Origin: Chaetoderma sp. LZ-2023a
Taxonomy: Eukaryota; Mollusca; Caudofoveata; Chaetodermatida; Chaetodermatidae
Assembly: GCA_034401795.1 (NCBI GenBank)
Contig: CM067369.1
Coordinates: forward strand, 136,903,496-136,967,495
Direction of reading: 5' to 3'
Length of the DNA: 64,000 nucleotides
Shown: positions 9,262 to 40,600 of the stretch, one piece after another
How the letters are laid out: every line of letters starts with the position of its first letter
Position numbering within the stretch: position 1 is the stretch's first letter
Made by a program: the position numbers and the translations under genes
The notes under the pieces: model-generated
Told to the model about the DNA's origin: nothing
Databases searched by the model: none
What the model saw: the letters and a program-made list of their open reading frames with translations, nothing else

Positions 9262-10710
9262 GGGCCAGGTAGGATAAGCTACTCTAAGTATAGGGTAGTC
9301 TAAGTAAGCTGGCTGGCCCTAGAGTAGACTATACAAGTTATGCCTAGGCTATCCTATGCTAGGATAATCCTAAGGCTATGGTTAGTTAGACACTAGATGC
9401 TATACCAGTCTAGCCTAAGTTATGATATACTAGTCCAGGCTAAGCTATGCTAGACTAGTCTAAGTTAGGCAATGCTATACTAGTCTTGCTAAGTTATGCT
9501 ATACTAGCCTAGGCTAAGCTATGTTATACTAGCCTAGGTTAAGCTATACTATACTGCTCTATGCTAAGCTATGCTCTACTACTCTATGCTAAGCTATACT
9601 GGTGTAGGCCAAGCTATACTATTCTAGTCCACGCTAAGCTATGCTATACCCTTATCCAAGCTAAGTTATCATATACTATTCCAGGCTAAGTTAAACTATA
9701 CTATTCCAGGGTAACTTATGCTACACAAGCCTGGGCTAAGTTATGCTAGACAAGTCTATGCTAAGCTATACTAGTCTAGGCTAAGTTGTGCTATACTAGT
9801 CTAGGCTAAGTTGTGCTATACTAGCCTAGGCTAAGTTATGCTATACTTGGCTAAGCTAACATAAGATGTTCTCGGCTAAGCTAAGATATACTCAGCTAAG
9901 CTAAGGTATGCTAAACTAAGGAAAGCTAAGCTGTGCTAGTCTACACTATGCTAAACTATAATAGACTAAGCTAAGACTAGCCAGGCCCTAGCCTATAGCT
10001 TAGCTTAACCTAGCTCAGACCAGCATAGTTGACGCATAACTAACCCAGCTTAGACTACTCTATCTACAGCCTAGCTTATCCTATCATACCCTAGCCTACC
10101 ATACCGTAGCATGAGGCTTAGCCTAGGCAAAGGTTGTGTAGCCTAGCCAGGCCATTATAGGCTACCATAAACCTAGAATCTAGGCTAGCTTAGCCTAAAA
10201 TAGCCTTATGCTTAGACTAGCATAGGCTAGCCTATGAATAGATTACATATTCCTCTTACGCCTAGACTAGCATAGCTTAGTTTCGCATAGCTTATACTAA
10301 GATAGATTACTTAGATAGCTTAGCTTAGAACAACACATATTAGCTTAGACTAGTCTAGCTTAAAAATAGATTATACCAGCTTATATAAGCTTAGCATAGG
10401 TTAGCTTTAGCATAGCATAGCCTTATTATATTAGCATTGCTTATACAAAATTAGCTTAGCATAGCTTATACAAACGACTAGCATAAATTACCATAGCTTA
10501 TCTTAGACTAGAATAGCTTAATATAGCTTAGCTCAGACCAGCTTAGCACTACTTAGCTCAGTCCAGCTTAGCACTGCTTAGCACAGGCTAGCTCAGATCA
10601 GCATAGATTAGCTCAGACCAGCTTAGCACTGCTTAGCATAGGTTAGCTCAGACCAGCATAGAATAGCTTAGACTACCATAGCCTATCTTAGCCTATCATA
10701 GCTTAGGTTA
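9262..10710. repeat. TAGCT satellite (family A) with internal strand switch
   Basis: Degenerate tandem array built on CTAAGCTATGCTATACTAGT-like units. It reads in that orientation from about 9,262 to 9,975. It then switches to the complementary sense (CTAGCATAGCTTAGACTAG) up to 10,710, which shows adjacent inverted blocks. The portion from 10,285 belongs to the left arm of the large inverted repeat. Confidence 0.85.
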
Positions 10711-10796
10711 TACTTAGTCTTGATTCCTTCATAGCAACAGTTCATACATGTAGCATCAGAATTACTTAAATGAATAGTTACTGAGGTTTGTCATAC

Positions 10797-10938
10797 CTGT
10801 GTGAATGTATAGGATATCTGCGTCGATCGCTGCATCAGCTACCTGGTCGCTGATGTACTCGATCTCGGCAGCCTTTACATCTTTGTTGACTTGCTTATCT
10901 ATTAGACCTGTAACAAAAACAGAATCGCTTCCAGCCAT
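10797..10938 (-). pseudogene. Inverted duplicate of SGNH-hydrolase exon 1, 78-nt in-frame deletion
   Basis: On the minus strand an ATG (10,938-10,936) opens 47 codons plus one base and ends at a conserved donor (G|GTATGA). It matches exon 1 of the right arm (27,767-27,985) in sequence and splice phase, sharing DSVFVTG, DKQVNKDVKAA and the ending DILYIHTG. Compared with that exon it lacks the segment holding the block I motif GTSIVKH. Its 142 nt plus 78 equal 220 nt, the length expected of the ancestral exon. No exon 2 follows on this side, so it is an orphan. Confidence 0.75.
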
Positions 10939-11523
10939 TTTAAGTTTGCTTTACAGAGTTTCTTAATAATGTACTATAAGAAAACTAAATCTCAGAAAAC
11001 AGAGCTACTGAAAAATATTAATATTAGAATGTCTAGCACAGACAAATAATCTAATTTAACCTATTCAGGCAAATACTATTATTACTTTACAAATGTTTGC
11101 TCTAGACAATAGCCTACTGCAGGTTATTTAATGAATTTGTATTAATAAATGTCTTGGAAAATTAATAAATGTGCTATAGAGCCTACTATTATACAGACCT
11201 ACTCCTAAGTTCTAATAGTTATAAATTAATTTACAGTAATATTCTAAATTAATATTAAGAAAATGTATTAATATGATTAGCACGCAAGTACTGTAGAGCC
11301 TAGTTGAATGACAGACAATTAACAAATTAGTATAGGTACTGTTTAATAAATGATAAGAAGATATATATTGAATAATAAAGCATCAAATATCTTTGAGAGA
11401 GCAGCGCTGGAGAGCAGCAAGTATCAGATATCTGAATGATTCTGAGCAATGCCAATATATCTGAAACAAAATCAAATGAACATGTACAAAAGATGGGAAA
11501 AGGAAATTATTGGTAATTTCATT

Positions 11524-11812
11524 ATGTGGGATGGGATGAGCTAAGATGGGATGAGATAAGATGAGTTAGGATGAGCAGGTAATGTATTTGTATGGAGAGC
11601 TGAGATGGTGTGGTCTGAGATGATGTGATGAAAGGTTAGTTACAGTGATGTGGTGATGTTGGTGTTTGGCGATGTTAATAAGGTGTGATGGGATGAAATG
11701 AGATGAGGTGCATTGTAGGATGCATTGCCAGAGTAGAGTGGAACGAGATAAGGCGGACTTCATTGAGGTGAGATGGGATGAAGCGAAATTGGATGAGATG
11801 AAATTTTTCCAA
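11524..11812. repeat. GATGGGATGAG pentamer-type simple array (left arm)
   Basis: Short imperfect repeats of GGATGAGATGGGATGAG type. The mirror copy, reading CATCCCATCTCATC, is at 26,886-27,182. Open frames in both copies follow from the simple composition. Confidence 0.75.
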
Positions 11813-11894
11813 CAATGAGTTTCTTACATCGTTTTCAAAATTGTTTTGTTTTGAAAACATGTTAACTTATTTCTGAGCTGTAGTGTATGGCATA

Positions 11895-12036
11895 GCTGGG
11901 GGAATTGGAATTGGGAATTGGAATTGATGTTTTGTCAGGAATTGGTAATTGGGTAAGTTTTGAGGAATTGGAATTAATTACTTTGCACAAGTAATTGGCA
12001 ATTGGCAATTGGCAATTCCTTTACCAATTACCTTAG
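11895..12036. repeat. GGAATTGGAATTG hexamer array (left arm)
   Basis: Imperfect repetition of AATTGG/GGAATT. The mirror copy is at 26,680-26,816. It sits between the simple GATGG array and the family C satellite, in the same mirrored order in both arms. Confidence 0.75.
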
Positions 12037-12159
12037 GTTACTTTTGTATATTCTCTTAGATTTAATTCTGACTATTCATCTATTTTACTTATTCTATTCT
12101 CTTTTATGCTTACAATCTTAAGCATAATTTGCTGAATATTTTGAAGCCTACATAATTAA

Positions 12160-12729
12160 CATGATGTCTAGTCTAGGCCAATCACTTCAATCTAGTCTAG
12201 TCTAGGCCAATCTAGTCTAGTCTAGGCCAATCTAGTCTAATCTAGCCTAGGCCAATCGAGTCTAGTATAGACCCATCTAGTCTAGTCTAGGCCAATCTAT
12301 AGTCTAGGCCAATCTAGTCTATGCGCTATCTAGTCTAGCCTAGGTCAAATTAGTCTTATCTAGGCCAATCTAGTCTAGTCTAGGCCAATCCAATATTTCT
12401 AGGCCAGTCTAGTCTAGTCCAGTCTACTCCAATATAGTCTAGTCCAATCTAGTCGACTCCAATCTAGTCTAGACCAATCAAGTCTAGGCCAATCTAGTCT
12501 AGGCCAATCTAGGCTGATCTAGTCTAGTCTAAGCCAATCTAGTCTAGTCTTGGGCAGTCTAGTCTAGTCTTGGTATGTCTAGTCCAGGCAAATTTAGTCC
12601 AGTCTATGCCAATCTAAGCCAATCTAGCCAGTCTAGGCCCCATATAGTCTAGTTTAAGCCAATCTAGTCTAGTCATCCAGTCTAGGCCAATCCAGTCTAG
12701 TCTAGGCCAATCCAGTCTACTCCAATCTA
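12160..12729. repeat. CCAATCTAGTCTAGTCTAGG satellite (family C), left arm
   Basis: About 20-bp units of CTAGTCTAGGCCAAT, imperfect. The array is interrupted by the Tc1-like element at 12,730 and resumes briefly at about 13,757-13,840. The right-arm counterpart is at 26,014-26,553 in complementary sense. Confidence 0.85.
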
Positions 12730-13756
12730 CACTGCTGGCCAAAAAAATGAGGCAAACCTGATTTATCATATTATTTATGATTACTCTTTAATGTTAATAA
12801 GTACAGGTGAAATAGGTGACAATTTTACATAATATTGTATGCATTGTCTGTGCAGGGTACCTTTTAGTATGGGATAGCCTTTCCCTTATTTTATTTGTCT
12901 CAAGACTCACACATTTGGGCAGGCTGTCTGAAAGCTTTTTGCATTGTGCTGCGTCAATGCTGTTCCATTCATGTCTGACTGCTTTCCACTGCTGAGTGAG
13001 CTAATTTGCATATCAAAAGCCATCTACTGAATGGATTCTTTTTCTATATTAGACCCACATACATACACAAAAGACAAATAGTGCACCTCTGTGTTCAGGA
13101 TTTAAAGTGAATTAACGAACCAAACTAGCAAGCTAGTTGAGCTACGCTGACCGAGGTGACAAGACATTAGCCATTTCTGTAATTTCTGTGTATTATCACA
13201 CTGTGCTTGAATAGTGAAGTTGTTATTTTTTATTCAAAATGTCTTCAAAAAAGGCTAAATTCCATGTACCTGTTGAAGTCAAAAGCCGGATCGCAGGTCT
13301 TCGTCAAGCTGGAAAGTCATATCCTGAGATTAAGAAAATTCTGAGGATATTCAGATTTCACTGTCTACTATACATGGAATTGGTCACACATTTCAAGTGA
13401 CGGGTTCTGTTGCCCGGAAAGCAGGTTCTGGACGAGCTAAAGTGACAACATGTCAAGATGAAAGTAGGATAAAAATGACTGTTCTGAAGAATCGTAAGAC
13501 TCTCACCAAATTAGCATAAGCATTCAGAAATTCACAAAATAAGGCTGTTTCAAGAAGAACACTTGCAAGGAGGCTCGAGGAAGCTGGTGTTTTTTTTAAT
13601 CAAAGTGGTGTGCTAAGAAACCATTGCTGTCCACAAAGAACGTTGCAGACAGACTCAGATTTTGGGCACTTTATCATGACCACGATTCTCAGTGGGTTGA
13701 GCGTGTTCTCTGGAGTGATGAGTCACGTTTTGAGCTGTGTACAGATGCTCCAGAGT
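12730..13756 (+). mobile_element. Tc1/mariner-like element, left copy (3' truncated)
   Basis: It begins at a TA with CACTGCTGGCCAAAAAAATG, matching the end of the right-arm copy. It runs about 1 kb, then breaks off into family C satellite straight after the codons for AVYRCSR, where the right copy still has about 670 bp. Because it is shared at mirrored positions, it inserted before the arms duplicated. Confidence 0.85.
13239..13756 (+). pseudogene. Tc1-like transposase, N-terminal half
   Basis: An ATG at 13,239 opens MSSKKAKFHVPVEVKSRIAG and continues LRQAGKSYPEIKKIL, a helix-turn-helix DNA-binding domain of Tc1 transposases. Frameshifts and stops follow. Later pieces such as the WSDESRF-equivalent region (13,700-13,740) remain recognisable by comparison with the right copy. 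The catalytic DDE half is absent. The right copy has the catalytic half but lost part of this N-terminus. Confidence 0.75.
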
Positions 13757-14800
13757 AGTCTAGTCCAATCCAGTCTTGTCCAATCTAGTCTAGGTCAATC
13801 TAGTCTAAGCCAATCGAGTCTAGTCTAGGCCGATCTAAGGTAGTCTAAGGTGAGCTATTAAAAGCTATGCTAGTTTATGCTAAGCTATTCTATGCTATGT
13901 TAGTCAAAGGCAAGCTAATCTAATCTAGGTTGTGCTAAGCTAAGCTAGTCTAATTTATGCTTGCCTACACTAAGCTAAGCTAGTCTAAGATAATCTAATC
14001 TAAGTTAGGCTAAGCTAGGCTCTGCTAGTCTAAGCTATGCTATGTTCGTCTAATCTAAGCTAAGATAGTCTAATCTGAGCAAAGTTGTGTTTGCCTAAGC
14101 CAATCTAAGGGCTATGCTAAGCTATTTAAAGCTATGCCAGTCTAACCTAAGCTATTTTATGCTATGTTAGGCTAAGCTAATTTAATCTATGTTATGCTAA
14201 GACAAGCTATGGTAGGCTAAGCTAAGATAGTCTAAGCTAAGCCAAGCTATGTTTGCCTAAGCTAATCTAAGGGCTATGCTAAGCTATTTAAAACTATGCT
14301 AGTCTAACCTAAGCTATTTTATGTTATGTTAGGCCAAGCTAATCTAATCTATGTTATGCTAAGCTTAGCTGTGTTAAGCTATGCTAATCTAAACTAAGCT
14401 AAGATAGCTTATCATAGCCTAGATCAGACTAAGCTATACCAAGCTATGCTAGTCTAAGTCATGCTAGTCTAAGCTATGCTAGTTTAAGCAAAGCTATGCC
14501 ATGCTAAGCTAGTTTAGCCTAAGCTAAGGTAGATCAATCCTAGGCAAGAATATGTAAACTAATCTATGCATAGGTTACTCTAGGCTATAGCATAAGGCTA
14601 GTTTAGGCTAAGATAGCATGGATGCTAAGTCTATGGTAGCCTGAAGTGGCTAGTCTAGGCTACATAAGCTTTGCCTAGGCTAGGGTATTATAGGCTAGGC
14701 TATGTCTAGGGTAGTCTAAGCTGAGCTATCTAGGCGTAGACTATGCTAGGCTGGGCTAAGATAGGCTATAGGCTAGGTATAGGGTAGTCTAAGCTGAGTT
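13757..14800. repeat. Satellite family A (plus sense) with module M in minus sense
   Basis: Tandem CTAAGCTATGCTAGTCTAAG-type units. From about 14,500 there is a less repetitive ~300-bp module (M) whose complement recurs at 23,315-23,600, 18,500-18,830 and 9,980-10,260. It includes a segment around TTGCCTAGGC and CATAAGGCTAGTTTAGGC. Confidence 0.8.
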
Positions 14801-14816
14801 AGGTTTACCTTTTAAC

Positions 14817-14826
14817 GAACCGGTTC
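14817..14826. promoter_or_regulatory. GAACCGGTTC palindromic box 1
   Basis: Perfect 10-bp palindrome inside a ~40-bp conserved block continuing CTTTAGCAAATGTCCTGAAG. It occurs four times (also 16,733, 21,430 and 23,291), placed symmetrically in the two arms at the junction of different satellite families. A protein-binding site is a reasonable inference; no factor is identified. Confidence 0.5.
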
Positions 14827-14869
14827 CTTTAGCAAATGTCCTGAAGTGTAGGGTAGAATCTTCCCTTGC

Positions 14870-16670
14870 CTTAGCTCAGCCTAAGCTAGGCTTGGCCATG
14901 CCTTACATAGGCTTGGCTAGGTCTTTTCTAAACCTGACCACGCTGTACATAGGCTTTAGCTCGGCCATAGTACAGCTTAGCCCATCATAGTTTAAGTTAG
15001 CCCAGTCCTGTATAGCTTAGCTTATCCCAGCTTAGGTTAGTCGATGACAGCTTAGCTTAGCCGAGTATATCTTAGCTTAGCCTAGCATAGCTTAGCCCAG
15101 TAGAGCTTAGCTTAGTTTAGCCCACTATAGCGTACCTTATCCCAGTAGACCTTAGCTGGCTCCAGATTAGACTGCGCAATCTCTGCCCAGGCTAGCCTAT
15201 GCTAGGCTAATCTTGCGGCTATGGTATTTTAGCCGTACTAGTCTAAGAAATACTAGTCCTAAGCCTTACTAGTCTACGCCATACTAGTCTAAGCTATACT
15301 TCTCTAAGTTATAGTAGTCTTGTCTAAGCTATATACTAGGCTGCTATACTAATCTACTCTAAGTTATGCTATACTAGTCAAGACTTTGCTATAGTAGGCT
15401 GACCCATGCTATACTAGTCTAAGCTATACTACTCTATGCTATGATAGTCTAGTCTAAGCTATTCTACGATATTCTAAGTTTTATACTAGTCTAGTGTAAG
15501 CTATGCTAGTCTAGGCTGGTATACTAATCTACTCTAAGCTATGCTACACTAGTCTTTGCTAAAACTATGCTATACTAGTCTAGGATAAGCTAAGCTAGGT
15601 TATACTAGTCTAGGATAAACCATGCTATACTAGTCTACTAGTCTCGTCTACTAGTGCCGTCTAGTCTACTAGTGCAGTCTAGTATAGTCTAGTCTATTAG
15701 TCTAGTCTACTAGTCCAGCCCTTTCTACTAGTCTATTCTACTAGTCGAGTCTAATCCACTAGTCTAGTCCACTAGTCTAGTCTGCTAGTCTAGTCTATTA
15801 GTCTAGTCTACTAGTGTAGACTAGGCTATACTAGTCTAGGTTAAGCTATACTATACTAGTCTAAGCTAATCTATCCTTGCCTAGGTCATTCTATGCTATA
15901 CTAGTCCACGCTAACCGATGCTATATTAGTCTAGAGAATTATACTAGTCTAGTCTACTAGTCTGGTCTATTTGTCTACTAATCTAGTCTACTAGTCAAGT
16001 CTAGATTGGGCTATACTAGTCTAGGCAAAGCTATACCATACTAGTCTAGGCTAAGCTATCCTTGCCTCGGTTAATCTATGCTATAATAGTCCACGCTAAG
16101 CTATGCTATACTTGTCTATGCTAAGGTATGCTAAGTTATTAAAGCTGTCACAAACTATGATAGTCTAACCTAAGCTATTTTATGCTATGTTAGTCTAAGC
16201 TTTTCTAATCTAATTTAATCTAAGTTATGCTAAGCTAAGTTATGCTAGTCTAAGCTAAGCTATGATAGCCTAAGCTAAGCTATGCCAAGATATGCTTGTC
16301 TAAGCTAATCTAAAGTAAGCTATGGTAATCTTGCTAGTCAAAGCAAAGCTACACTAGTCTATGCTAAGCTAGTCTAAGATAAGCTATGCTAGTCTAAGCT
16401 ATTCTAAGCTCAGATATGTTAATCTATGCTAGTCTAAGCTAAACTATGCTAGTCTAAGCTATTCTAAGCTAAGATATGTTAATCTATGCTAGTCTAAGCT
16501 AAGCTATGCTAGTCTAAGCTAAGCTAGTCTAGATAAAGCTATGTCGTGCAAATCAAAGATAAGCTATGCTAGTCCAAGCTAAGTTATGCTAGTCATCCCT
16601 ACGCTAGTTTAAGCAAAGATATGTCATGCTAATCTAAGCTAAGCTATGCTAGTGTAAACATAAGGCTAGT
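14870..16670. repeat. Satellites B (short), A minus, A plus
   Basis: A short CTTAGCTAGGC-type block (14,870-14,960) is followed by family A in complementary sense (14,960-15,200). Family A in plus sense follows to 16,670, including a CTACTAGTCTAGT-rich patch at 15,620-15,830. The mirror counterparts lie at 21,500-23,240. Confidence 0.8.
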
Positions 16671-16732
16671 TTATGGTTATGGTTGGGATTTCAGAGTATG
16701 TCATGTATGTGAAATATTATCTACCTCTCAAC

Positions 16733-16742
16733 GAACCGGTTC
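16733..16742. promoter_or_regulatory. GAACCGGTTC palindromic box 2
   Basis: Second copy in the left arm, 1,916 bp from box 1. It is preceded by a non-satellite ~50-bp stretch (TCATGTATGTGAAATATTAT) that is also present, mirrored, next to the box at 21,430. Confidence 0.5.
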
Positions 16743-16779
16743 CTTTAGCAAATGTCCTGAAGTGTAGTCTAGGGTAGGG

Positions 16780-18290
16780 TAAGGTGGCTGGGGGTCTACC
16801 TTGACCTTAGCTATGCTAGGCCATCCCTTATCTGGGCCTAAGCTGTACCTTATCTAGACTTAGCTTAGCCTTAGCTAGCCTTATATAACCATTAGTTAGT
16901 CCTTTCTTAAGCCTTAGCTTGGCCTTAGTTAGGCTTGGCTAGGCCTTAAATCTATACCTGACTACGCTGCATATAAGCCTTAGCTCGGCCTTAGCTAGGC
17001 TGGGATACACCTTACCAATGCCATATCTAAGCCTGGCTAGGTATTGTTTAGGTCTGAGCTAGTCATTAGTTACACTTGGCTAGGTCTTAGCTAGCTTTGA
17101 CTAGAACGTACATAGGCCTTTGTTAGGCTTGAGCAAGCCTTAGCTAGTCTTGGCTATGCCTTCCGTAGGACTAAGCTATGTCTGAGCTAAGCTTGCCCAG
17201 GTATTACCTAGGTCTTAGCTTGACTTACATAGTTATTAGCTAGATCTTAGTTAGGCTTGGTTAGGTGTTAGCTATGCTTGAATCACCGTACCTATATCTT
17301 AGCTAGGCCGTAACCAGGCTTACGTACATCTAAGGGAGGCATTATCTAGGTTTGGCTATGCCTTACATATGCCATAGCTAGGCGTGGGTAGGACTTACAT
17401 AGGTGGCATTAGCTCGGCCTTAGCTAGGCTTGGGCATGCCTTACCTAGGCCCAAGATGTGCCTTATATAAACTTGACTTAGTCTTAACTAGGCCTTAGCT
17501 AGCCTTACATAGGCATTTGCTCGCCTTACTTAGGTCTTAGCCTGGCAAAGGTCTGGATATGGCCTGGCGAGCAAGGCCTGGGTAAGGCCTTGCCAATCTT
17601 AGATAAGACCTAACTTATGCCTACGTAAGTCATAGCCAAGACTAGCTACGGCTTACTCAAGCCTAGCTCACGCAGGGCCGAGGACTAAGTATGGCCTATC
17701 CAGGTCTAGCTAAGGCCTATCTAAGCCTAGATAATGCCTAACAAATGTCTAATGCATACCTAAAGACTAGCGAAGACCTATGTAAAGCTAGCCAAGGTTT
17801 AGATATAGCCTATAACAGCATAGCTAAGACCTCCAAAGCTTGGCTAATGCCCAGGTAAGGCCTAGAAAGGCCTGAATAAGGCTACGTCAAACGTGACGAA
17901 GGCCTAGGTAAAGCCTAGTCAATCCCGGATAACGCCTATGTAATGCCTAGCCAAGCCTGGATAAGGCCCAGTCACGCCTCGGTACGGTCTAGGTATGGCC
18001 TAGCCAAGCCTGGATAAGGCCTAGTCATGCCTTACTAAGGCCTAATCAGGCCTGACTAATGCCTAGGTAAGGCCTAGCTAAGCCTGGATAAGACCTAGTT
18101 ATGCATGCTAAGGCATAGTTAATGTCTACTCAAGCCTGGCTCATGCCTAAGCAAGGCCTAGCCAAGCCTGAATAATGTCTAGTCAAACCTCACTACGGTT
18201 TAGGTAAGGCCTAGTCAGGTCTGGCTAATGCATCTAGGCAAGGCCTAGCTAAGCCTGGATAAGGTCTAGTCAAGCCTGGCTAAGGCCAAA
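16780..18290. repeat. Satellite family B (TTAGCTAGGCCTTACATAGG), with strand switch
   Basis: A GC-richer satellite than family A. It reads TTAGCTAGGCCTTAC to about 17,560, then its complement GCCTAGCTAAGCCTGG to 18,290. The inner edge of the inverted repeat falls within this array at about 17,706, so the second part lies mostly in the spacer. Confidence 0.8.
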
Positions 18291-21370: not shown

Positions 21371-21429
21371 AGGTAGACCCCCAGCCACCTTACCGTACCC
21401 TAGCCTTCACTTCAGGACATTTGCTAAAG

Positions 21430-29085: not shown

Positions 29086-29174
29086 GGGTAAAAATAATTA
29101 ATGGATGAGCCATATCACACTTTTACATTCTTGTTAATAATATATGCAAATATAACACATAAATTCTTATACAG

Positions 29175-30408: not shown

Positions 30409-31004
30409 TCCCATCATTATCATTATCATCTGCCGACAATTCTTCTTCCGACATGTCCGAGTCATCATCTTCTGCCGACAATTCCTCCAACATGTCCAAG
30501 TCATCATCTTCTGCTGACAATTCTTCTTCCGACATGTCCGAGTCATCATCTTCTGCCGACAATTCTTCTATCATGTCCGAGTCATCATCTTCTGCCGACA
30601 ATTCTTCCAACATGTCCGAGTCATCATCTTCTGCCGACAATTCTTCCAACATGTTCAAGTCATCATCTTCTGCCGACAATTCTTCCATCATGTCCGAGTC
30701 ATCATCTTCTGCCGACAATTCTTCTTCCAACATGTCTGCGTCATCATCTTCTGCCGACAATTCTTCTTCTGACATGTCCGAGTATGTTCCCGTGATCCAA
30801 TCTAGTAAAGCAATGTATGCCGACATCTTGAAAATTTGATTAATGAGTAGGCCAACAATAATTTCTACTCCTTGCCTTTCTAAGTTCCATTGCAAACGTG
30901 TCACCAAAAATCCCAAATCACTTCCTTCTCGGCATCCATTCGATTTCCGCAGGCAAGGAAGGCGTCGACCTCAACAAAAAATCATACCTCGTAGCCAGTA
31001 TTGA
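30409..31004 (+). CDS. SGNH hydrolase exon 3: Ser/Asp repeat and basic tail
   Basis: Acceptor TTTCTAG at 30,402-30,408; phase 1 entry gives VPSLSLSSADNSSSD. Nine units of 12-14 residues (consensus ESSSSADNSSNMS) follow, then YVPVIQSSKAMYADILKI, an in-frame TGA (30,837), and an open stretch with SKFHCKRVTKNPKS and FRRQGRRRPQQK to a final TGA at 31,002-31,004. Unit-length changes are all multiples of three. The tail is strongly basic, suggesting nucleic-acid or polyanion contact (inference). Confidence 0.62.
30423..30782 (+). repeat. 39/42-bp coding minisatellite (nine units)
   Basis: Units of TCATCATCTTCTGCCGACAA plus TTCTTCCAACATGTCCGAG, with or without an extra TCT triplet. Both strands stay open through the array. 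The plus strand is favoured because it splices in phase to exon 2; the minus frame (acidic DDD-rich) has no supporting context. Confidence 0.8.
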
Positions 31005-33020
31005 TATATCTTGTCTGTATTGCAATAGTAGTGAAGTTAGTGCAAAGTTATTATGAAGGGTCTTGATAATATTTCTCCTACTATGGTAATTCTAATCCAG
31101 AGAAGAATGTCCAAATAGTCACCATGCTTTGTAAATACATTGCTTATCCTAACCGTATTAAATAGCAAGGTCTGCCCTGCTGTAAAGTTAGTAGCAATTT
31201 GCCCACTAAGAGTCAACAGGTGAATACAGTGAGTCAGTCACTGAGGTAGCTGTATTTTGAGTTCATCTTTAATATTCTGCTCTATTCTATTCTACTTTAC
31301 TCTATTCTATCCTATTCCGTTCAGTTCTTATTCTATTCTATCCTTATTTTCCCTTCTATTTATATCACATAACAAGTCTTAGACATGTTAGTGCTCCAAT
31401 TGAAAAAAAAATCTTTTTTAAAGGCGCACATTCACACCAAATTTTTTAGGTTGCCTTTTGTTATAACTGCCACATCAGCAATTTCATACAATGCCAAGAA
31501 TATTAAATACATTCACTGTTCCGGTTTTAATTTACATTTCACAATCCCGTTTTGTGTTTCAGCCGAATGATGATCGATATAAATCATATCTATCATTACA
31601 ATTTGACGATCTAGTGGCCAAGCTCCATAGTTCGCATGCTAGGTGTTTCAGCTTTGGACAGAAGGTGCTTTATTTAATATTTTAATAATGATAATAATAG
31701 CAATCAGATATTGCAGACCATCATCCTACCATTTTTTGTCACATTGTAAAGATTTTCAGCATTTTAGCTCGACTTTACAAAATAAAACGAGCTATTGCGA
31801 TACCCTGCATGTCGTCCGGCTGTGGTGGCAGCATCACATCATCTCACAATGACCTAGGGGTCAAAAGGTCAACAGTCAAAGTTGCTGTTAACTTGGTCAA
31901 AACTGCGGTTTTTCAACAGTAACATTTTAGATTTAGCTCAGCTTTGCTGTTTATATCTCGGGTTTGATTAATCATACTGTGCCCAGCCCTGGGCACATGC
32001 TTCCTTATAAGGACACGACATTCCACAATAATGTAACGGTCAAGGCTACTGTGATCTTGGTTAAACTATTTTCAATATGATCATTTTCTGTTTAGCCCAT
32101 CATAGTAGTTTATATCTCATCTTTGCATAAAGTTCTTGTATCCCATTAAATATAGACACCTTTGCACGAAATCAGAGATGCCTGTTGTTTTCTATTCAAT
32201 TTACCCAGCATGCAATACTACCCAACATGCAGTGACTTGATTCCATAACCGTTGTAACTATTGGACGCCATATTCATTTACTCTATTGTCTGCACAAGCC
32301 AAGATTTCTCAAACAAAGCCAACACATTTGCACGTGCAAATAGTCTTGTCTGCCAGCTCTGGAAGCATAATCATGCATGTAGAATGTATTTACGGCAGTA
32401 CATTCGACAGCCTGTGTTTCAATACTGTTCAGCTAACGGGTGTCAACTTCCAGAAGAAAATAAGAGAAAGCGTTCATATATTTTGACAATAATTAGCATG
32501 AAAGTTGTTGCTATAAAATTTTTCGTGCCAGATTTCGAAGCGCTCTAACCCTATACTCACAATTTTTTCAGCAGATGTGTTAGGTTTAGATGAAGTGTCA
32601 TGATTTCGTTTCAGCAAAATCTGCCCATAATCATGCAAGTTGTCTCATTTGTCAAAATTGTCTTGCCTTGGCCAGAGCCCGAAGAGTTTTTATTTTTGAA
32701 CCTACACAATATCTTTCTAGCCGATATATTACCCATAGACGAAGTGCCATGATATTGTTTCGGCAAAATCTGCCCATATTCACCAGCGTTATCTCCCTTC
32801 AAATATTACAATTCATCAAAATTGTCTTGTCTGGGCCAGATCTAGAAGAGTTTTGAACATACAAGTTCACAATCCATTTTTCAGCAGATGTCAAAATATT
32901 TGTGTCCAGGGCATGTCTCTGACAATTTTTATTTCAAATAGCACTGTTCTTCAACAACTGGCTTTATTTCGGGTGTATATTGAGTTTCACTAAAATTCTT
33001 GTTGCAATATAAATTTCTTT
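31005..33020. other. Intergenic stretch with repeat fragments
   Basis: Holds a simple TATTCTATTCTACTTTACTC patch (31,270-31,360), a fragment of repeat R (31,850-32,130), and a diverged direct duplication of about 130-170 bp: GTGTCATGATTTCGTTTCAG at 32,595 and GTGCCATGATATTGTTTCGG at 32,743, each followed by CAAAATCTGCCCAT. Short frames here have no recognisable domain. Confidence 0.55.
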
Positions 33021-33706
33021 GACAGGTGCTGTGATCAGAGACAAGAAAACCAAAGCAATCCAAAGTCCGAAGGATGACACAAATTTCTAAGACATTTCAG
33101 GTAAACATTAAAATGAAATAGCTATAGACGGTCAAGTTGAATTTAGTGTTATCTGATATTTATTTTAAAAGAACGTTTTAAAAACCCATGCCGATGTCTA
33201 ACTGGTGTTTGGTGACGATCCTGCGAGTAAAACTTGTTGAATCACTGCATCCTTTTCAGTGATCTTCACTTCTTAAGTTCACCACCTCGAGATCAAGAAA
33301 CTTCATCAGGATGCCCAACGAAGCCAGCACAACAATGTATCTGTTAGAATTAGTATACTGCGAATAGCAGTGCTAATCTTTAATCTCTTCATAATCACAT
33401 GAGATTCTCCCATTCAATCTACATCAGAAGAATATGAAAAGCTTTACTAAATAAATCATTTATTTTGTGTTCAAAGGTTGTGGCAGTTGACTGTCCCTTT
33501 TGTAAGCGGCCACTATGCTCAGATGAAAAATTACTGGACCACGTCATGGGGAATGTGTAAAGCTTGAAAGAGAACGGGTGTGTTAATTTTTTTTGCTATT
33601 AGGCAATAAAGTTCCATAAAATGGTTGAAAAATTTGGACCTGTGTGAGATAAACTGAGTCCTTTAATAATAAACCTGCCCATCAGAGTATGAATATTGGA
33701 CTGTTC

Positions 33707-33780
33707 TTAACCCGCATTAGCTCTCGATTTTATTCGAGAAAATTTCAACTTTATCATAGAAAATATCCATTTGCAGACCA
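33707..33780 (-). repeat. Solo end of piggyBac-type MITE (family P)
   Basis: TTAA at 33,707-33,710 followed by CCCGCATTAG and then sequence matching the right end of the full copy at 41,127-41,349 in reverse (ATAGAAAATATCCATTTGCA). Homology stops near 33,790. Confidence 0.55.
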
Positions 33781-33837
33781 AAAGATTATTTTTTATACCT
33801 GTCAAAAAGAGTATTATGTGATGACATATGCGCAGTA

Positions 33838-33985
33838 GAGTAGTTTCCAGATGATAACTCTTGCTGTTTATCCTATCGAAGTCCAAGATGGCTGTCAACC
33901 AAGGGTGGTCATCTTGAAAATTGTTTTCAGGACGATTACTCCATTACCGTTTATCGGATCACTGACAATTCATAGGATGACTGGC
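33838..33985. repeat. Single unit of the 149-bp GGCCATCTTG repeat
   Basis: GTTTCCAGATGATAACTC, GTCATCTTGAAAATTGTTTT and CATTACCGTTTATCGGATC match the tandem array at 54,440-55,200. Confidence 0.6.
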
Positions 33986-34239
33986 CTATGAAAAATTGAT
34001 AATATAATTATCAAAAATCTTGATGTGTGATGTGTCAATGCCAATCCTGTGAAAGTCGCAATCTATGGATTACTGATCCGATTTGGCTCAAAATTTAACA
34101 CAACAAAGGGTGTGACTGCACCAGGATTCTACAAATTTCGACGTACATGTAATTTGAATAGTCTGGAAAATCGAAAAAAAAATCTTTACAATGTCGCAAA
34201 AACAGAAGAGTGAGGGTCTGCTCTTGTTATTAGTCCCCT

Positions 34240-34345
34240 ACAGGTAAAACTGGGGGGGGGGACAATATCCTATATATATTCCACCGAGGGGGGGGGGGGC
34301 GTGACAGATGGGAACTATATCCTATATATATTCTACCAGGGGGGA
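34240..34345. repeat. Short direct duplication separated by poly-G
   Basis: ATATCCTATATATATTCCACC and its near copy ATCCTATATATATTCTACC are each followed by G runs of 6-12. A low-complexity region likely to be unstable. Confidence 0.6.
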
Positions 34346-35815
34346 GACTATAGGTTTGCACTCCGTCTGTCTGTCACAGTTTCCACACTTCTTCGCACCT
34401 CTCTAAGATATTCGACTAAAAATTGGTACACTGCTTTACTATAAAGAGTTACAGAGCAAGTTTGACTTTCAGACATTTCCGTCAGCTTTGTATGTAGTTA
34501 TCGGGTTTGAGTTTCAGGCGTTTCTGTCAATTTTTGATGGAGTTACGTCCCTATTCTACCTATGAAATAAATATCAGCTTTCGAGTCTTTTTCATTCTTC
34601 TTCACCATATTTAACTGAAAGTTGGTACATTGCTTTGTTATGAGAAATTGTAGATCAAGTTTGAATTTCAGCTGCTTCTGTCAACTTTAATGGAGTTTTC
34701 GACTGTCAATCTTGGAAGATTTATATCACCAGGTAGCAAAGCAATGCTTACAGAATGCGTGTTTAATTGTACTTAGTCCTTGACCTTAGGTTTTTATATT
34801 TTTATTGAAGATAGTAAATAATTGTTTATCTTTGCTTCTCGACCTACAGGCGATGCGGCTAGTGGAAAAGACAACAAAGGTTCAGCACAACAAAGTCAGT
34901 TCATTACTGCTGATCTTTCTTTACAAGTGTCCCTGTACATTATTATTTGCAATCAATGACAAGCAGTTAGTATTGACGTGTCTATAAATAACTCAATTAG
35001 ATGATTTCTAGGGATCTCATAGAGATGTAAGGGTTCATTATAAAGGACTTTTTATTAATGCACATTTTAACTGTCTGGTGCAAGTAAGTTTGTAATCCTA
35101 TGTTCACAGGGTACATTTACATGCACATTTTTATATTTTTTAAAGCGACATCCTATTATATGACCTGGTGCTCATCATCTGCCTGACTCTACATCCATCT
35201 CCCTTGATAGACTTAAATTTTTCAAATTTTTCTTGTATGTGTCAGATCGCTCACAGTTACCTCTAGACACCTTTATAAAAAAAATTGGGAAAGTACATCA
35301 ACATGTGACAACCTCGGTTGTATTCATGTTTCAGCGATACCCATTTGTCTATGTCAGAGTCATCTCTCTTAAAAACAACTTTAGCACTAATTATACACCC
35401 ACCCACCCCTTACGGGTAGCAGGGGTATTATGTTTTTGTCTCGTCCATACATCCTGAAAATCTTGTCGCTGCAACTCTTCCTACAGTTTGAGAGAATTGT
35501 TTGAAACTTGACAGGATAATTGTATACCACCCAAAAATATGAGTGCTGTAAAAAATATTCATCTGTCTGTCCATCTCCAAAGATCTCATCGCTGCAACTG
35601 TACTCAAGTTTGGATATATCAGCCTCCAGCTGGCTTTGAATTGTTACTCATATTTATGTTGAGTTTCACTAAGCCTCAGTCGTGTTAGTTGATATGCTAT
35701 GTTATGTGCATGCATTTTTTTGGGCTGAGGTGCAAATAAAATTCCCATGTATCTGATGGCTGGCATGAGCCCATGCTATGCTGGACATTACTTTAAATTC
35801 TAAGTTTAAATACAG
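34346..35815. other. Non-coding stretch upstream of the transposase
   Basis: Includes two loosely similar units of the 'AAGTTTGA-TTTCAG-TTCTGTCA' kind (34,440-34,700). It also has a fragment of the repeat seen at 43,200-43,790 (TTTGAGAGAATTGTTTGAAA at about 35,487). No gene is recognised. Confidence 0.45.
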
Positions 35816-35869
35816 GTCTTTGTTACTGGAGGCGGTGATCAACAACCAGAGCAACCAAAGATCATCAAG

Positions 35870-37768
35870 ATGCCTTATAAGCTCATTACAGCTACTGTCG
35901 GTATCACTGTTGCATTAAATCCCAAATCCACGGTTATACCACCAGAACAGGATCTTAGGAAAATAAAATCCATGTTAACTGATTCTAATTACGTGAGCTT
36001 TCCTTATGGAAATTTTAACAAGGAAGGTATTTTGGCACTACTTGACCTTCATATAAAGAAAAATTCAGCAACAGATAATAAGTGGCTTTCGGACAGTAGC
36101 TTGGAGAATTATCACCTTCGAACACCAATTCCATTAGCTAAAATTCAATTGCTTGTCAAAACTATAGTGGTGATGACCGATAATGAAATCCTAAATTTAC
36201 CTGGAAATTATCAACTTAGCAAAGCAAGTTTTACTTCATTACTTTGTGACCGCTGGATCTGGGATTGCATTATTTCGAAATCTCTTGAGATTTTAATGAT
36301 ACAGCAGCAGGATGTTTATGCAGGTTATTTAAGTAACATTACTGACTTCCTAAAGGCTGGTGAAGAAGCTACGGCAAAGTATGGCAGTGATATAAAACAC
36401 TTTGTATTTGCAATGAACGTTAAAATTAATGATTCACCAAATTCAATGGAATTCAAAACTGATATTACTGGAATCGAAATTAATAAAGGCAATCATTTCT
36501 CATTTTGTCTTTTAGATCTAAGCTCAGAAATGGCAAACCTGAAGTATATTTATACATTGGCTTACCCAGTACCGTCATCATTGGAAAATGCGATCAAAGA
36601 ATTTCTGCTAGGATATGGTGTAGACACTTTTGATGACTTAGTTGTTTCATCTTGCCATGACTGTTCTGGACATTCTTGTTCTCCGCAGTGTACAATTTAT
36701 CCTAAACAACGGTGTTGTTCTATCTGTGGTCCTGCTGTCATTTGTGGAATTGCATTATCAGTTTTTTGTCCGGACACTTTTCATGATCTTGTTACTTTGA
36801 ATCAAAAAGCGATTTTACCTGAAAATGTGTTGCCATTATCTTATTTCATGAACGATTTATCTGCAAATTCCAAATTGCTCCGGTTAGGAATTCTAAGTTG
36901 GTTATTGGATGGTAAAATTAATATTGACAATATTCTGTTTTCTATTCCCCAAAAGAGGACAAATAGATTATCATTGCCAAAGAAAAATGCAAATTTATCA
37001 GCGGTATCAAAGTTGCAGAAAGACCAAGTTAATACCCAACCAAATTTATTTAAGGAGGATTCAAATTCTATTTTCAAACAAGCTGATCAATCTAGCCATA
37101 CAGACCTAGGATTGCCAGATTCTTCAAAATGTGTCAGTGGCGAAGCTTCTTGTTCACAGAGTCATACATGTATTAGAACTGATTTCAGTGATTTACCAGT
37201 GAATGACAAGCCTGCCAATATACCAGTCAGGAGGACGAATAAGAAATTAGATGTTCCTAATGAATTATGGAAATTTCTTAGTAAATATCCAGTTCTAACG
37301 TTCATCAAACCAAAGTCTTTATCTTTGCGATGTTTTATTAAAAATTCTGTTAATCCATTATATAAAAACATTCGATGTTCAGAAGCAGGAAGGGATGATC
37401 CCGCTGCAATTCGGGAAATTAATAATTTTCTAAAAAGTCTTGAATGTAAGGATTGGTTAGCACACAAGTTCAATCAAACTAAAGAATGGTTAGAATATTG
37501 TGAACTAGAAGTTGGAATTAAAACCAAAGAATTTTTTGATCAATTTGCATTTGACTTTACGAAGCGTGTAAAAATGCACAAGGCTGTTGAAGTAAAATAC
37601 CATGATCAGACAGCTAGAGTTTCGGTTACAGAGCATAATTCATGGGTTTTGATGAACAGTATAAATGTGCTGGTGTTGTACCAGAAGGTCATTTCCCAGT
37701 GGTTACAATCTTTATTAAATGTGGATCTAGAAGCCAGCAGTGTAGGTCCGAGTGCCTTACTCCTCTGA
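35870..37768 (+). CDS. MULE transposase N-terminal region (632 codons)
   Basis: Begins MPYKLITATVGITVALNPKS; the ATG is in an AAGATGC context and the frame extends 18 codons upstream to a splice acceptor. A Cys-rich cluster at residues ~262-290 (CHDCSGHSCSPQC, then CCSIC) probably binds zinc. The middle (residues ~360-460) is polar and low complexity. The last ~40 codons are out of frame with the rest of the gene: the homologous frame switches at about 37,640, so the true continuation is MGFDEQYKCAGVVPEGHFPV and onward. I do not recognise this N-terminal region as a named domain. Confidence 0.75.
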   Translation: MPYKLITATVGITVALNPKSTVIPPEQDLRKIKSMLTDSNYVSFPYGNFNKEGILALLDLHIKKNSATDNKWLSDSSLENYHLRTPIPLAKIQLLVKTIVVMTDNEILNLPGNYQLSKASFTSLLCDRWIWDCIISKSLEILMIQQQDVYAGYLSNITDFLKAGEEATAKYGSDIKHFVFAMNVKINDSPNSMEFKTDITGIEINKGNHFSFCLLDLSSEMANLKYIYTLAYPVPSSLENAIKEFLLGYGVDTFDDLVVSSCHDCSGHSCSPQCTIYPKQRCCSICGPAVICGIALSVFCPDTFHDLVTLNQKAILPENVLPLSYFMNDLSANSKLLRLGILSWLLDGKINIDNILFSIPQKRTNRLSLPKKNANLSAVSKLQKDQVNTQPNLFKEDSNSIFKQADQSSHTDLGLPDSSKCVSGEASCSQSHTCIRTDFSDLPVNDKPANIPVRRTNKKLDVPNELWKFLSKYPVLTFIKPKSLSLRCFIKNSVNPLYKNIRCSEAGRDDPAAIREINNFLKSLECKDWLAHKFNQTKEWLEYCELEVGIKTKEFFDQFAFDFTKRVKMHKAVEVKYHDQTARVSVTEHNSWVLMNSINVLVLYQKVISQWLQSLLNVDLEASSVGPSALLL

Positions 37769-37956
37769 CAGACATTGATGCATCAGTTGTTAAAGATATA
37801 AATATCAATACCTGTCCTGCATGCAAGGAAGAGATAACAATGGACAGCAGAAAATGTGGTCATTGTGAAAAACAGAATTCTCGTCAGTGGTATGTTGTTG
37901 AAGGAAAGCAGTGCTGCAATGCTTGCTATAGGTATTATAAAAAAGCATGGAATTAA
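37642..37956 (+). CDS. GATA-like zinc finger segment of the transposase
   Basis: The frame carries CPACKEEITMDSRKCGHCEK and then EGKQCCNACYRYYKKAW. The second motif is C-x2-C-x16-C-x2-C with a Trp in the loop and CNAC at the end, close to the GATA-type finger (usually x17-x18). It is joined by a frame change at about 37,640 to the N-terminal frame, and by another at about 37,950 to the frame reading NRPSVLKDCHFIAIKKKEVY. Such a finger would help recognise transposon ends (inference). Confidence 0.65.
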   Translation: MGFDEQYKCAGVVPEGHFPVVTIFIKCGSRSQQCRSECLTPLTDIDASVVKDININTCPACKEEITMDSRKCGHCEKQNSRQWYVVEGKQCCNACYRYYKKAWN

Positions 37957-38531
37957 TAGGCCATCAGTATTGAAAGATTGTCACTTTATAGCAATTAAGA
38001 AGAAAGAGGTATACCATAAACATTTCGAGTGTCATTGGCAATTGAATCTAATTGTGTACAATAATCAAATGGATTGCTGGAAAGTATATTCTTGGCATGA
38101 AAATCCTATGTATCATCAGGAGCCAGCAGTTCAAATTAATAAAAGGCCAAGTCTGTTCCACCGAGATGGCATTGATTTGCTGCGTGTCAGTCAGAGGAGT
38201 ACAGCCAAGCAGATATATATATATCAGTCAAAATAGAAAAACATCAATACATGTAAACAATCCTCGACAACACAGTCAATCATATCATTCAGTTAAGCAG
38301 ATACAAAATCGAGTGCAACTTGTTCACAGACATGGACTAAGCATGAGCATTAAGAATTTGGATGAATTTCCACTTCCTGGTTCTGATTGGCGAAAAACTG
38401 AAAAGGTCTTGGAAAGTAATTTAGAGTCAGTCTTATTATTTCAAAGAGGTTTTGATGACATTGGTAGAAATTACCACATTGTTCTCGCTAATAATAACAA
38501 TTTGACCAATGTAAAGACATAAGGCAAACAC
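37957..38531 (+). pseudogene. Transposase linker between the GATA-like finger and the DDE core
   Basis: Two frames carry it. One holds HFECHWQLNLIVYNNQMDCW and HRDGIDLLRVSQRSTAKQ; after an (AT)n run at about 38,213-38,225 the other holds VQLVHRHGLSMSIKNLDEFP and RGFDDIGRNYHIVLAN. A TAA at about 38,520 is the only stop before the DDE frame, which continues in the same phase. Confidence 0.6.
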
Positions 38532-39494
38532 ATGTTAGGTTATGATACTAAGCATGACTTTGTGTCTGTGCGATTTAGTACTGGGATGGTGACATTCGCT
38601 GATGCAAAGAATAAGGGTCGAGTAGCTTGTCTAGGAATTTGTAATCGTGAAGATGTAAATAGGCATGTTTTAACTTTTCAGGCACTTATAGCAAATTTAC
38701 CATGCTCAGATAGTTCATGTTCTCATGAGAGACAACTATATATATTTAATGATCTAAATGGATTCTTTTATTTCAGGCCTTGTTCACTGAAAGAACCATT
38801 CAAACCAATGATTCAGCATGATAAGAGCAGCTCTATAAAAGCTGCTGTGAACCAACTTGGTCTTGCATCATCTTTGTGTAATTTCCATGGATTAAAAGCA
38901 TTCCGTGAACATATTATTGGTGAATCTAGTTTGAAAATGTGTCTACGTCCATTAGAATCAGGCTTTAAAGTCATTATGCATAGCTGGAACATAGATGCAT
39001 ATGAAACGTTCATCAATCACTATTTGGACTTTATTAAGAATGACATTCCAGAGACATTTGTTGATGTGGACACCAAACATAAGTTGACAGCTTATTTAAA
39101 TGGGAGTTGGTTTCAGTTTACATGGGCACATGATTTTACATTTGAAGTTATTTATAAGTTGCCTGTGGAAGAGAGAAGACACCCTTTAATTCTAACTGAT
39201 AATATTACTGAAAGAAAGTTTCGTGATATTGATGAAAGCTTACTAAATTCACATTTGAATAAATCTGTTGCTAATTTTGTAAATTTAATGACAGACAAAT
39301 TTCTGTCAGCAGATCTTGCTGAATGTCACCATTTTCTAGGTCATAATAATTTTCGCACCGCTAATGTCATTAATAAGTCAATTGAGATGAATAAGATAAA
39401 TAAAGCATTGGCCATGGATGAAGACGATACTGTTAATGCCACTCCACAAACTGATAGTTGGATGTTGGTTAAAAAAAACTGGTCTAAACACTAA
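38532..39494 (+). CDS. MULE DDE catalytic core (320 codons)
   Basis: Catalytic Asp 1 in MLGYDTKHDF (codon at 38,544), Asp 2 in PMIQHDKSSSIKAA (38,820), the C-x2-H motif CNFH (38,877-38,888), and Glu in TDNITERKFRDI (39,210). Spacing is 92 and 130 residues apart. These are the landmarks of Mutator-like transposases. The frame ends by a slip at an A8 run (about 39,470-39,478) and continues as TGLNTKLQDVDLRDDTEAR in the next frame. Confidence 0.8.
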   Translation: MLGYDTKHDFVSVRFSTGMVTFADAKNKGRVACLGICNREDVNRHVLTFQALIANLPCSDSSCSHERQLYIFNDLNGFFYFRPCSLKEPFKPMIQHDKSSSIKAAVNQLGLASSLCNFHGLKAFREHIIGESSLKMCLRPLESGFKVIMHSWNIDAYETFINHYLDFIKNDIPETFVDVDTKHKLTAYLNGSWFQFTWAHDFTFEVIYKLPVEERRHPLILTDNITERKFRDIDESLLNSHLNKSVANFVNLMTDKFLSADLAECHHFLGHNNFRTANVINKSIEMNKINKALAMDEDDTVNATPQTDSWMLVKKNWSKH

Positions 39495-40131
39495 GTTGCA
39501 AGATGTAGATCTTAGAGATGATACCGAAGCTAGATATTTAGATTTAGAAAATTTAGAAGATGTAGATCATGAAAATATTTCTCAAAAAAGCCTTCAATCA
39601 TTAGTGCAAGAAATCACTGATGAACACAGTTATTATGCTGTTAACACATGTAAAACTGTATTGTTTGAGCTGCAAGCAAAGGTATGCACGCTTTTCAAAA
39701 CTTATCTAATATCGTGTTTACCAAATTCTTTGCAAACCCTTTACAAAGATCAAAATATTTGCAATTTGGAATATAGCATTTGCTCATGTCAGTATTTTGT
39801 TATGCGAGGTCAGCCATACTTTTGCAAACATTTATATGCTTGTCTTGCGAAAACAAAGGGAATAAGACTAGCCTCTGAACTTTTTGATGCTTATGTACAT
39901 CATGCACCTAGATTTAAAAGCACGGAAAACACTGGTAATAACACCATGCATTGTAAATTAGACAAGATCAATGAGCTAATTCCTGTGTCTCGTATTGCTT
40001 CAGAAACTGAGTTAGAATCAGCAGAGAAGGGTAGTATTTTAAAACTACTCCATCATAAACTTATTCCATTGTCATTACCACCAGGTAGACAAGCTAAGAG
40101 AGGCCCGCACTACGGATACAAATTTAGATAA
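39418..40131 (+). CDS. Transposase SWIM zinc-finger segment
   Basis: The useful part starts after the A8 slip at about 39,478. The SWIM motif C-x-C-x11-C-x-H (CSCQYFVMRGQPYFCKH) is at 39,781-39,831. SWIM fingers follow the DDE core in many MULE transposases. An acidic stretch (DLRDDTEARYLDLENLEDVD) precedes it. The frame ends at 40,131, but the homologous reading moves to another frame at about 40,105. Confidence 0.8.
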   Translation: MKTILLMPLHKLIVGCWLKKTGLNTKLQDVDLRDDTEARYLDLENLEDVDHENISQKSLQSLVQEITDEHSYYAVNTCKTVLFELQAKVCTLFKTYLISCLPNSLQTLYKDQNICNLEYSICSCQYFVMRGQPYFCKHLYACLAKTKGIRLASELFDAYVHHAPRFKSTENTGNNTMHCKLDKINELIPVSRIASETELESAEKGSILKLLHHKLIPLSLPPGRQAKRGPHYGYKFR

Positions 40132-40228
40132 CATGGATAAAGACCTGTTAGCTGATATTGATTTGGAAATCAAAGAGCAGATTGACCATTAAATTGCTAA
40201 TAAACTTGTTAAACCAACCTGTAGCAAT

Positions 40229-40600
40229 GTGCCACAGAACACTATTAAGTCAGCGTCGGAAAAGAATATTGTTTGCACACTCTGTATCACTAACAAAATT
40301 GTGCCTTTGTTTTCTTGTAGTACCCTAAGCATTCTATTGAGGCACATTTCTACTGCTCATTGCTTGAAGCTATTAACCTGTGCTGACTGTTTAAAAGATT
40401 ACGTTGAAGTAGTTAGTTTTGAAAATGAAAACATGCTGAAAAAACATGCTTCTATTCTCCATGTTATTAATGATGGTAAAGTCACTGCAAATAATACAAC
40501 AATACCCTCTGAACAAATTGATAGTACTTCCAAGCTTAATATTGAAGAGATTACTAATATCTCCAGTAATTCCTCACAGGCAGAGAGTGATTTTGTGTAG
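40229..40600 (+). CDS. C-terminal tandem C2H2-like zinc fingers
   Basis: 123-codon frame with CTLCITNKIVPLFSCS then LRHISTAH, and CADCLKDYVEVV then LKKHASILH: two Cys-x2-Cys ... His-x4-His units. The same frame extends upstream to 40,105, crossing one TAA at 40,191, and reads NMDKDLLADIDLEIKEQIDH. It is therefore most likely the transposase C-terminus rather than a separate gene. Confidence 0.6.
   Translation: MPQNTIKSASEKNIVCTLCITNKIVPLFSCSTLSILLRHISTAHCLKLLTCADCLKDYVEVVSFENENMLKKHASILHVINDGKVTANNTTIPSEQIDSTSKLNIEEITNISSNSSQAESDFV

Follow-up and report, generated by a model that had tools for sequence, protein, structure and literature searches.

A probable broken head-to-head double of a giant terminal-inverted-repeat transposon family with an SGNH hydrolase gene in the genome of Chaetoderma sp. 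LZ-2023a

FB and FB-NOF elements of Drosophila have long inverted repeats composed of short tandem repeats. Here we describe a palindromic stretch of 64,000 nucleotides (hereafter the window; C11:136903496-136967495 of the 2.44-Gb genome of Chaetoderma sp. LZ-2023a, assembled in 2753 contigs) that carries satellite-rich arms, an SGNH hydrolase gene and a transposase gene, and that had been regarded in a preliminary description as a possible giant Foldback-like transposon. Most probably, it is a broken head-to-head double of a giant DNA transposon family with terminal inverted repeats (TIRs), of MULE/Rehavkus type.

In the passages cited here, Rehavkus elements are described as having a 9-bp target duplication, a PHD finger, a mini-satellite before the 3' TIR and TIRs of 26-400 bp; a table of the same source gives one open reading frame (ORF) per element, and the group is known from arthropods and annelids (PMC6446971). 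Rehavkus-1_TC of Tribolium, 9.5 kb long, carries the satellite TCsat23 in its inverted termini (PMC10218199). In a large survey, arthropod MULEs measured 1.4-10 kb (PMC13359780) and the Pack-MULEs of one survey lay within 7 kb (PMC6431247). The Tetris foldback element of Drosophila virilis has a satellite in its inverted repeats and 8-10 bp duplications, and its placement in the Mutator superfamily was suggested (PMC4079207), while composite movement of large segments between elements was described for the Ising transposable element (PMC6431247). Hydrolases of the SGNH/GDSL type are also known from mobile elements: (i) the intron-containing texim gene, associated with Helitrons in fish only (PMC4021074), (ii) the ORF1 esterase of CR1 (PMC3905857) and (iii) the GDSL esterase of rotifer Terminons (PMC6431247).

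Gene linkage, termini and bounded units

Joining the arms, the hydrolase and the transposase into one mobile unit was an inference of the preliminary description, and it was borne out by genome-wide comparison: the three parts recur jointly at many loci, which refutes the notion that they are never found together. Homology searches covered the best 56 of 423 and the best 150 of 486 candidates, with transposase rows picked by hand, and the resulting counts are lower bounds. A downstream transposase in the same orientation is present within 20 kb at 24 of the 39 SGNH loci (25 within 65 kb); each of three control geometries gave 0. Among the 24 linked loci, eleven share only 52-55% identity with the SGNH query; they probably represent a few families, not eleven independent events, and they argue against one segmental duplication as the source of the SGNH-transposase pairs. 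Arm DNA (11000-12000; best 40 of 1552 candidates scored) was matched over at least 940 bases at 11 places beyond the window, and the transposase region 36000-37700 gave 46 matches genome-wide. The presence of arm pieces at many other loci, together with the 15 of 39 SGNH loci that have no transposase within 20 kb, would fit a chance neighbourhood in which a satellite palindrome lies beside an SGNH gene of the host and a transposon unrelated to either. This explanation is extremely improbable given the collinear recurrence, a unit with both ends defined on C4 and the order and strand that stay fixed even at diverged loci.

The termini were reached by walking along sister copies, which end on the right in a shared sequence (...CGTATTTTGC) whose reverse complement is 92-94% identical, over 51 bp, to the left end of the C2 unit. 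A 34-bp terminal pattern (GCAAWATACGAWAACTTKCRCGAWYSACTTTCCG, up to 3 mismatches) was found at 42 genome places (23 forward and 19 reverse) versus 0 in the backward control, with no match in or near the window. Perfect target duplications of 8-9 bp flank 5 of the 13 testable end pairs (four of 9 bp and one of 8 bp; Table 1), versus none of at least 6 bp among 156 mismatched end pairs; at the C8:58.3M pair, 6 of 9 duplication bases match. The search for defined ends and an 8-10 bp duplication proposed in the preliminary description thus succeeded in the sister copies.

The best example of a single unit is C4:26953-56345 (29,393 bp), which has both termini and a 9-bp duplication. From left to right it comprises a TIR, the 22-bp motif, a satellite (1491-5003) containing an inverted part, the region of SGNH exon 1, a remnant of DIRS-like sequence, a portion of SGNH exon 2, the transposase, the 3' region, a further satellite (27808-28490, consisting of 21-bp and longer-period arrays), two copies of the motif and the other TIR. 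The transposase contains an open piece of 810 amino acids ending in a PHD finger. This unit is not intact: deletions have removed parts of SGNH exon 2 and of the transposase at its 5' side.

The 22-bp motif, TAAGGTGGTCYAATAAGACAGG, occurs at 648 genome places versus 0 in the backward control. Within the listed positions, which are exact matches and extend as far as the beginning of C7, it points inward at both ends of 6 of 8 tested end pairs; of the others, C1b has it at the left end only and C4:8.13M has none. The motif looks like a transposase binding site. Its places far outnumber the SGNH and transposase loci found and some are spaced by multiples of 111 bp, which hints at many non-autonomous relatives.

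A second family, C4:10185075-10207907, follows the same plan: the motif at the left end, an inverted satellite, an SGNH gene and a transposase with a PHD finger (61% and 55% identity to the transposase and SGNH queries, respectively). It has another candidate TIR (50 bp, 90%), its transposase is interrupted by a stop and no target duplication was found at this locus. The giant-transposon reading of the window is thus supported by the linkage, the termini, the 9-bp target duplications and the two-gene cassette recurring in diverged relatives; for the satellite and the motif, recurrence was seen in the one diverged relative read.

A single unit would consist of (i) a TIR of about 51 bp, (ii) a unique stretch with inward 22-bp motifs, (iii) a 5' satellite array folding back on itself, (iv) a two- or three-exon SGNH gene, (v) a long transposase with Cys-rich clusters, a DDE-like core, SWIM and a PHD finger and (vi) a 3' region with a 21-bp satellite, an inward 22-bp motif and the second TIR. 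The transposase would bind the TIR and the subterminal motif, cut both ends and insert the element with a 9-bp stagger, while the SGNH protein may be a lipid-acting accessory.

The transposase and the SGNH hydrolase

The transposase of the window lies beyond the hydrolase on the same (plus) strand, as previously described, with 6.3 kb between SGNH exon 2 and the first of three ORFs (35810-37768, 38523-39494 and 39400-40131). It is broken by an in-frame stop (38520-38522) and a frameshift near 39480. A D...D-C(2)H...E order is visible in the alignment of relatives, which we take to be a DDE-like motif; the reading as a MULE rests on these motifs and on the target duplications of the sister copies. 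A PHD finger outside the window copy matched the full PF00628 profile (E 9.6e-5; 22.8 bits versus a cut-off of 24) and the TAF3 PHD chain (E 8e-8), and the finger of the C4 copy of the first family matched PF00628 with E 0.0016. No relative of the transposase was found in an IMG/VR scan. Transposase fragments also form a satellite-like tandem array with a period of about 6.2 kb, built of transposon pieces, at G000:C15:156890538-156933173.

The VGTS, GGND and DGVH blocks are present in the read sequence of the hydrolase gene and correspond to the SGNH catalytic blocks with S, G, N and H. Exon 1 was correctly placed inside the inverted repeat by the preliminary description. The window copy is broken by a frameshift in exon 1 and a stop in exon 2; in sister copy P0002 exon 1 is open. 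Exon 2 of sister copy P0001 passed PF13472 (E 7e-8; 33.6 versus a cut-off of 32.9 bits), and the window's own exon 2 piece stayed under the cut-off (E 0.0013). Whole plus-strand frames (27001-36902 and 34500-43501, stops as X) gave only weak GDSL and weak zinc-ribbon matches in Pfam, and no useful match to the SGNH sequence was found in PDB and NCBIfam. The family-2 ORF L082:8560-8973 ends, as judged by eye, similarly to the possible exon 3. That the gene recurs beside the transposase speaks for some function in the life of the element. For the esterases of the CR1 and Terminon retroelements, an action on membranes is proposed in the passages cited (PMC6431247, PMC4021074).

The palindrome in the window and its origin

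Comparison of the window with itself (BLAST) confirmed the inverted repeat with satellite that had been proposed. Its arms, 10285-17703 and 20525-28463, pair piecewise with 89-96% identity (13751-17373/24381-20777, 90.6%; 10867-13754/27838-25049, 89.1%; 10285-10865/28463-27917, 89.8%; 17409-17703/20819-20525, 95.9%), and the top inverted score was 5129 bits, versus no more than 42.8 in any of 20 dinucleotide-block shuffles. Much of both arms consists of tandem repeats, whose units range from 5 to 31 bp and above. Because non-satellite sequence pairs too (block 10740-12150; 93.3% identity in 1296 columns, 97.4% in another 114), the arms are a true inverted duplication. As is generally known, misassembly (a fold-back read or a mirrored contig) can yield long palindromes. 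Here the two arms show about 5-10% divergence and many indels, and their insertions are not the same (the DIRS-like one is on the left only). They are also found at three loci, and the left arms of different loci cluster together, so that an assembly artefact is highly improbable.

Very long satellite-rich inverted repeats with a gene within or beside them would suit a genuine Foldback element of the FB/NOF type, in which the arms would be the terminal inverted repeats, as initially proposed. This proposal was not upheld, and we consider it very unlikely. No duplication was seen by eye at 10285/28463, sister copies stay homologous beyond 28463 as far as 28537 and again from 28542, and in the sister copies read the arms occupy internal positions. 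The actual termini, of about 51 bp, lie several kb outside the arms, and the single C4 unit, which lacks the mirror in that form, has both termini and the 9-bp duplication.

With a length of at least about 58 kb, the palindrome continues beyond the left edge of the window, where a minus-strand SGNH gene (C11:136899148) and a minus-strand transposase (C11:136883378) are located. This continuation of the mirror explains the missing third arm: in agreement with the preliminary description, the 40 top inverted and the 40 top direct self-BLAST matches include no arm copy to the right of 28463. The window copy has neither terminus. On the right it is truncated at 46098, where 10 of 11 fetched sister copies and C1a continue directly in one common sequence, which the eleventh (L038) rejoins after a local rearrangement past the equivalent point. 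Two candidate element termini, window 46098 and C1a 18281, were disproved by sister copies.

The right arm is piecewise collinear with the C4 element, in which 22324-26776 is missing. The head-to-head junction probably lies near 17.7-18.9 kb of the window, inside satellite and with no 5' terminus remaining. A locus at C1:94.61-94.65M (C1b) matches window 5-14356 and 27115-41760 piecewise (94-98%), with the palindrome centre absent. In a midpoint-rooted tree built on 589 bp from 10 arm copies, the window, C1b and C6 left arms cluster (97/96), and the right arms of the window and C1b cluster elsewhere (99/96), beside single units; the C6 right arm (44% of columns) falls in the left-arm group. 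As left and right arms group across loci, the palindrome seems older than the window, C1b and C6 loci and seems to have been copied as a unit. We suggest that two half-elements were joined within the satellite, which would give a palindrome with like ends on both sides; the transposase could mobilise the whole double unit through these ends, and the window copy would have lost both termini later.

Several observations weigh against the giant-transposon reading. Both genes occur within only one of the five duplication-bounded units (C4:26953-56345): the C15:160.48M unit has the arm and SGNH with no transposase among the matches listed, the C6:1.35M composite has two 73-amino-acid transposase fragments and no SGNH among the matches listed, and neither gene is among those listed for the C14:100.35M and C15:122.55M units. 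No copy with every ORF intact was present among those fetched, and the SGNH loci without a transposase nearby, mentioned above, belong here too. The name MULE given to the transposase in the preliminary description was not corroborated by Pfam, in which the window copy had no MULE match and SWIM alone, under the cut-off (E 0.3), and transposases of sister copies and of family 2 likewise had no MULE domain. The AlphaFold model of the DDE region, with a predicted local distance difference test (pLDDT) score of 31, is unusable for fold comparison. Finally, 8 of the 13 end pairs have no perfect target duplication, including C2:138482441-138575647 and both window-type 70-kb palindromes (C6:418193-488307 and C1:94587828-94658661), and outer flanks are common between copies (C6 left, C2 right and C97; C6 right and C1b right; C1b left and C1:94511337 left), which indicates segmental duplication or recombination for those copies.

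Spread of the palindrome by segmental duplication or recombination, with only single units being mobile, is therefore a serious rival for the window-type palindromes, and we put it somewhat short of an even chance. Besides the two window-type palindromes with termini but without target duplication and with shared flanks, it is favoured by the C17 copies, 148 kb apart and 97.6% alike over 4 kb, and by the inverted flanks of C4:8133133-8142871, a palindrome including host DNA. Against it stands C6:1352615-1424024, a 71-kb head-to-head composite with a perfect 9-bp duplication outside its two outward 3' termini: doubles can move, and like ends on both sides can be used. This composite differs from that of the window in having no SGNH match and in retaining both inner 5' termini (3 mismatches each), with inverted flanks inside. 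Transposition of a window-type palindrome as a double is possible. At the C4:8.13M locus mentioned above (interval C4:8133073-8142930), two 5'-type termini face outward, and the outer flanks, of which 25 bp were read, are mutually reverse-complementary: the palindrome carried host DNA along.

Coordinates are collected in Table 1. The DIRS-like stretch contains minus-strand ORFs 2633-3115 and 2983-3651, with a weak match to Phage_int_SAM_4 (E 0.011), and direct repeats 7-1055/6217-7333; it is common to the sister palindromes at C1:94.61M and C6:0.44M. DIRS-related sequence was also observed inside the SGNH intron of several sister copies. The adjacent fragment 9134-10284 is 82% identical over 60 bp to the 5' region of C1a and includes an array (9397-9975) detected by Tandem Repeats Finder (TRF). 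To the right of the 46098 break there are two further dispersed repeats (46500-46908 and 46909-48500), and relatives of the latter flank the inner termini of the C6:1.35M composite. A tandem repeat with a 151-bp unit (4.8 copies, 83% matches) occupies 54450-55168. The 5' flank common to the C17 copies and C6:1.35M was sought in the window and not found.

Table 1. Features of the window and duplication-bounded units elsewhere in the genome
Feature	Position	Strand	Basis or detail
DIRS-like (tyrosine-recombinase) retroelement in the mirrored left half	1-9134	minus	position equivalent to SGNH intron 1
Fragment like the element 5' subterminal region	9134-10284	plus	one TAAGGTGGTCCAATAAGACA-type motif (~9199-9220), then satellite
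Left arm, inverted copy of the 5' satellite region with truncated SGNH exon 1	10285-17703	minus	self-comparison
Truncated SGNH exon 1 copy, ~78 bp missing	10782-10944	minus	left arm
Palindrome spacer, satellite	17704-20524	none	self-BLAST, C4 comparison; collinear with single C4 element from ~18904 on
Right arm (right half-element), 5' satellite region	20525-28463	plus	self-comparison, C4 comparison
SGNH exon 1 (GTS block), frameshifted	27767-27985	plus	inside right arm; splice site is our own reading
SGNH exon 2 (GGND, DGVH blocks)	29175-29537	plus	outside arm; TAG at 29405-29407; ~33 bp shorter than sister copies
Possible third SGNH exon, putative tail rich in Ser and Asp, coded by a minisatellite	30409-30836	plus	ORF 30351-30839, TRF 30420-30783
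Transposase N-terminal part, Cys-rich clusters	35810-37768	plus	ORF
Transposase DDE-like region (YDTKHDF; QHDKSSSIKAA...LCNFH; LTDNITE)	38052-39494	plus	ORF, alignment of relatives
Transposase SWIM-type CxC...CxH region	39400-40131	plus	ORF, Pfam; C-terminal PHD finger of sister copies absent
Element 3' part	40586-46098	plus	sister-copy comparison
Bounded unit	C4:26953-56345		duplication CTGTACTTA
Bounded unit	C14:100350484-100367072		duplication ATGGGGTGG
Bounded composite	C6:1352615-1424024		duplication GATAGAACG
Bounded unit	C15:160477856-160495.7k		duplication AACTAGCAC, accepting a right end 3 bp shorter
Bounded unit	C15:122546188-122558121		duplication GTCGTACC, 8 bp

Comparison with known systems

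In its mode of action, the element resembles cut-and-paste TIR elements that leave 9-bp duplications. It has the MULE-wide traits of target duplications (8-9 bp in sister copies; 8-11 bp, mostly 9 bp, in the superfamily) and TIRs (about 51 bp at 92-94%), as well as the Rehavkus traits of a PHD finger (absent from the window copy) and a mini-satellite before the 3' TIR; long satellite inverted repeats are not its ends, as they are in Foldback elements. What is new is its size, the conserved SGNH gene and the 71-kb inverted composite with its own 9-bp duplication. No SGNH gene in a MULE or Rehavkus element was described among the literature matches listed, in which subscription journals and Repbase Reports are thinly covered. 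The 29.4-kb unit and the 71-kb composite with clean 9-bp duplications exceed surveyed MULE sizes, a cut-and-paste element keeping SGNH among relatives with only 52-55% SGNH protein identity offers a new system for asking why mobile elements need an esterase, and subterminal satellite provides a concrete route by which transposons could seed satellites and large palindromes. Perhaps, with a chance a little below even, these elements are a giant animal DNA transposon class in which SGNH is a lasting second gene and no passing cargo, the subterminal satellite arrays are kept machinery, and two copies fused within these arrays give 70-kb mirror elements with like ends that can move as a whole.

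The closest known group is Rehavkus/MULE, set beside these elements by description on the basis of the 9-bp duplication, the PHD finger and satellite near the termini; the differences are single units of about 23-29 kb (including nested insertions), the recurring SGNH gene, kilobase satellite arrays and head-to-head doubles. FB and FB-NOF are alike in their long inverted repeats of short tandem repeats and composite movement, whereas here short TIRs end the element and the long palindrome lies inside it and does not occur in that form in the C4 unit. Tetris likewise has satellite in inverted repeats and 8-10 bp target duplications but, in the passages cited, is non-autonomous, without a conserved ORF or hydrolase. 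As in texim, an intron-bearing SGNH hydrolase gene is tied to a DNA transposon, in that case a rolling-circle Helitron and here an element with a DDE-like transposase, TIRs and 9-bp duplications. CR1 and Terminons also carry an SGNH/GDSL esterase as a mobile-element accessory, yet both are retroelements.

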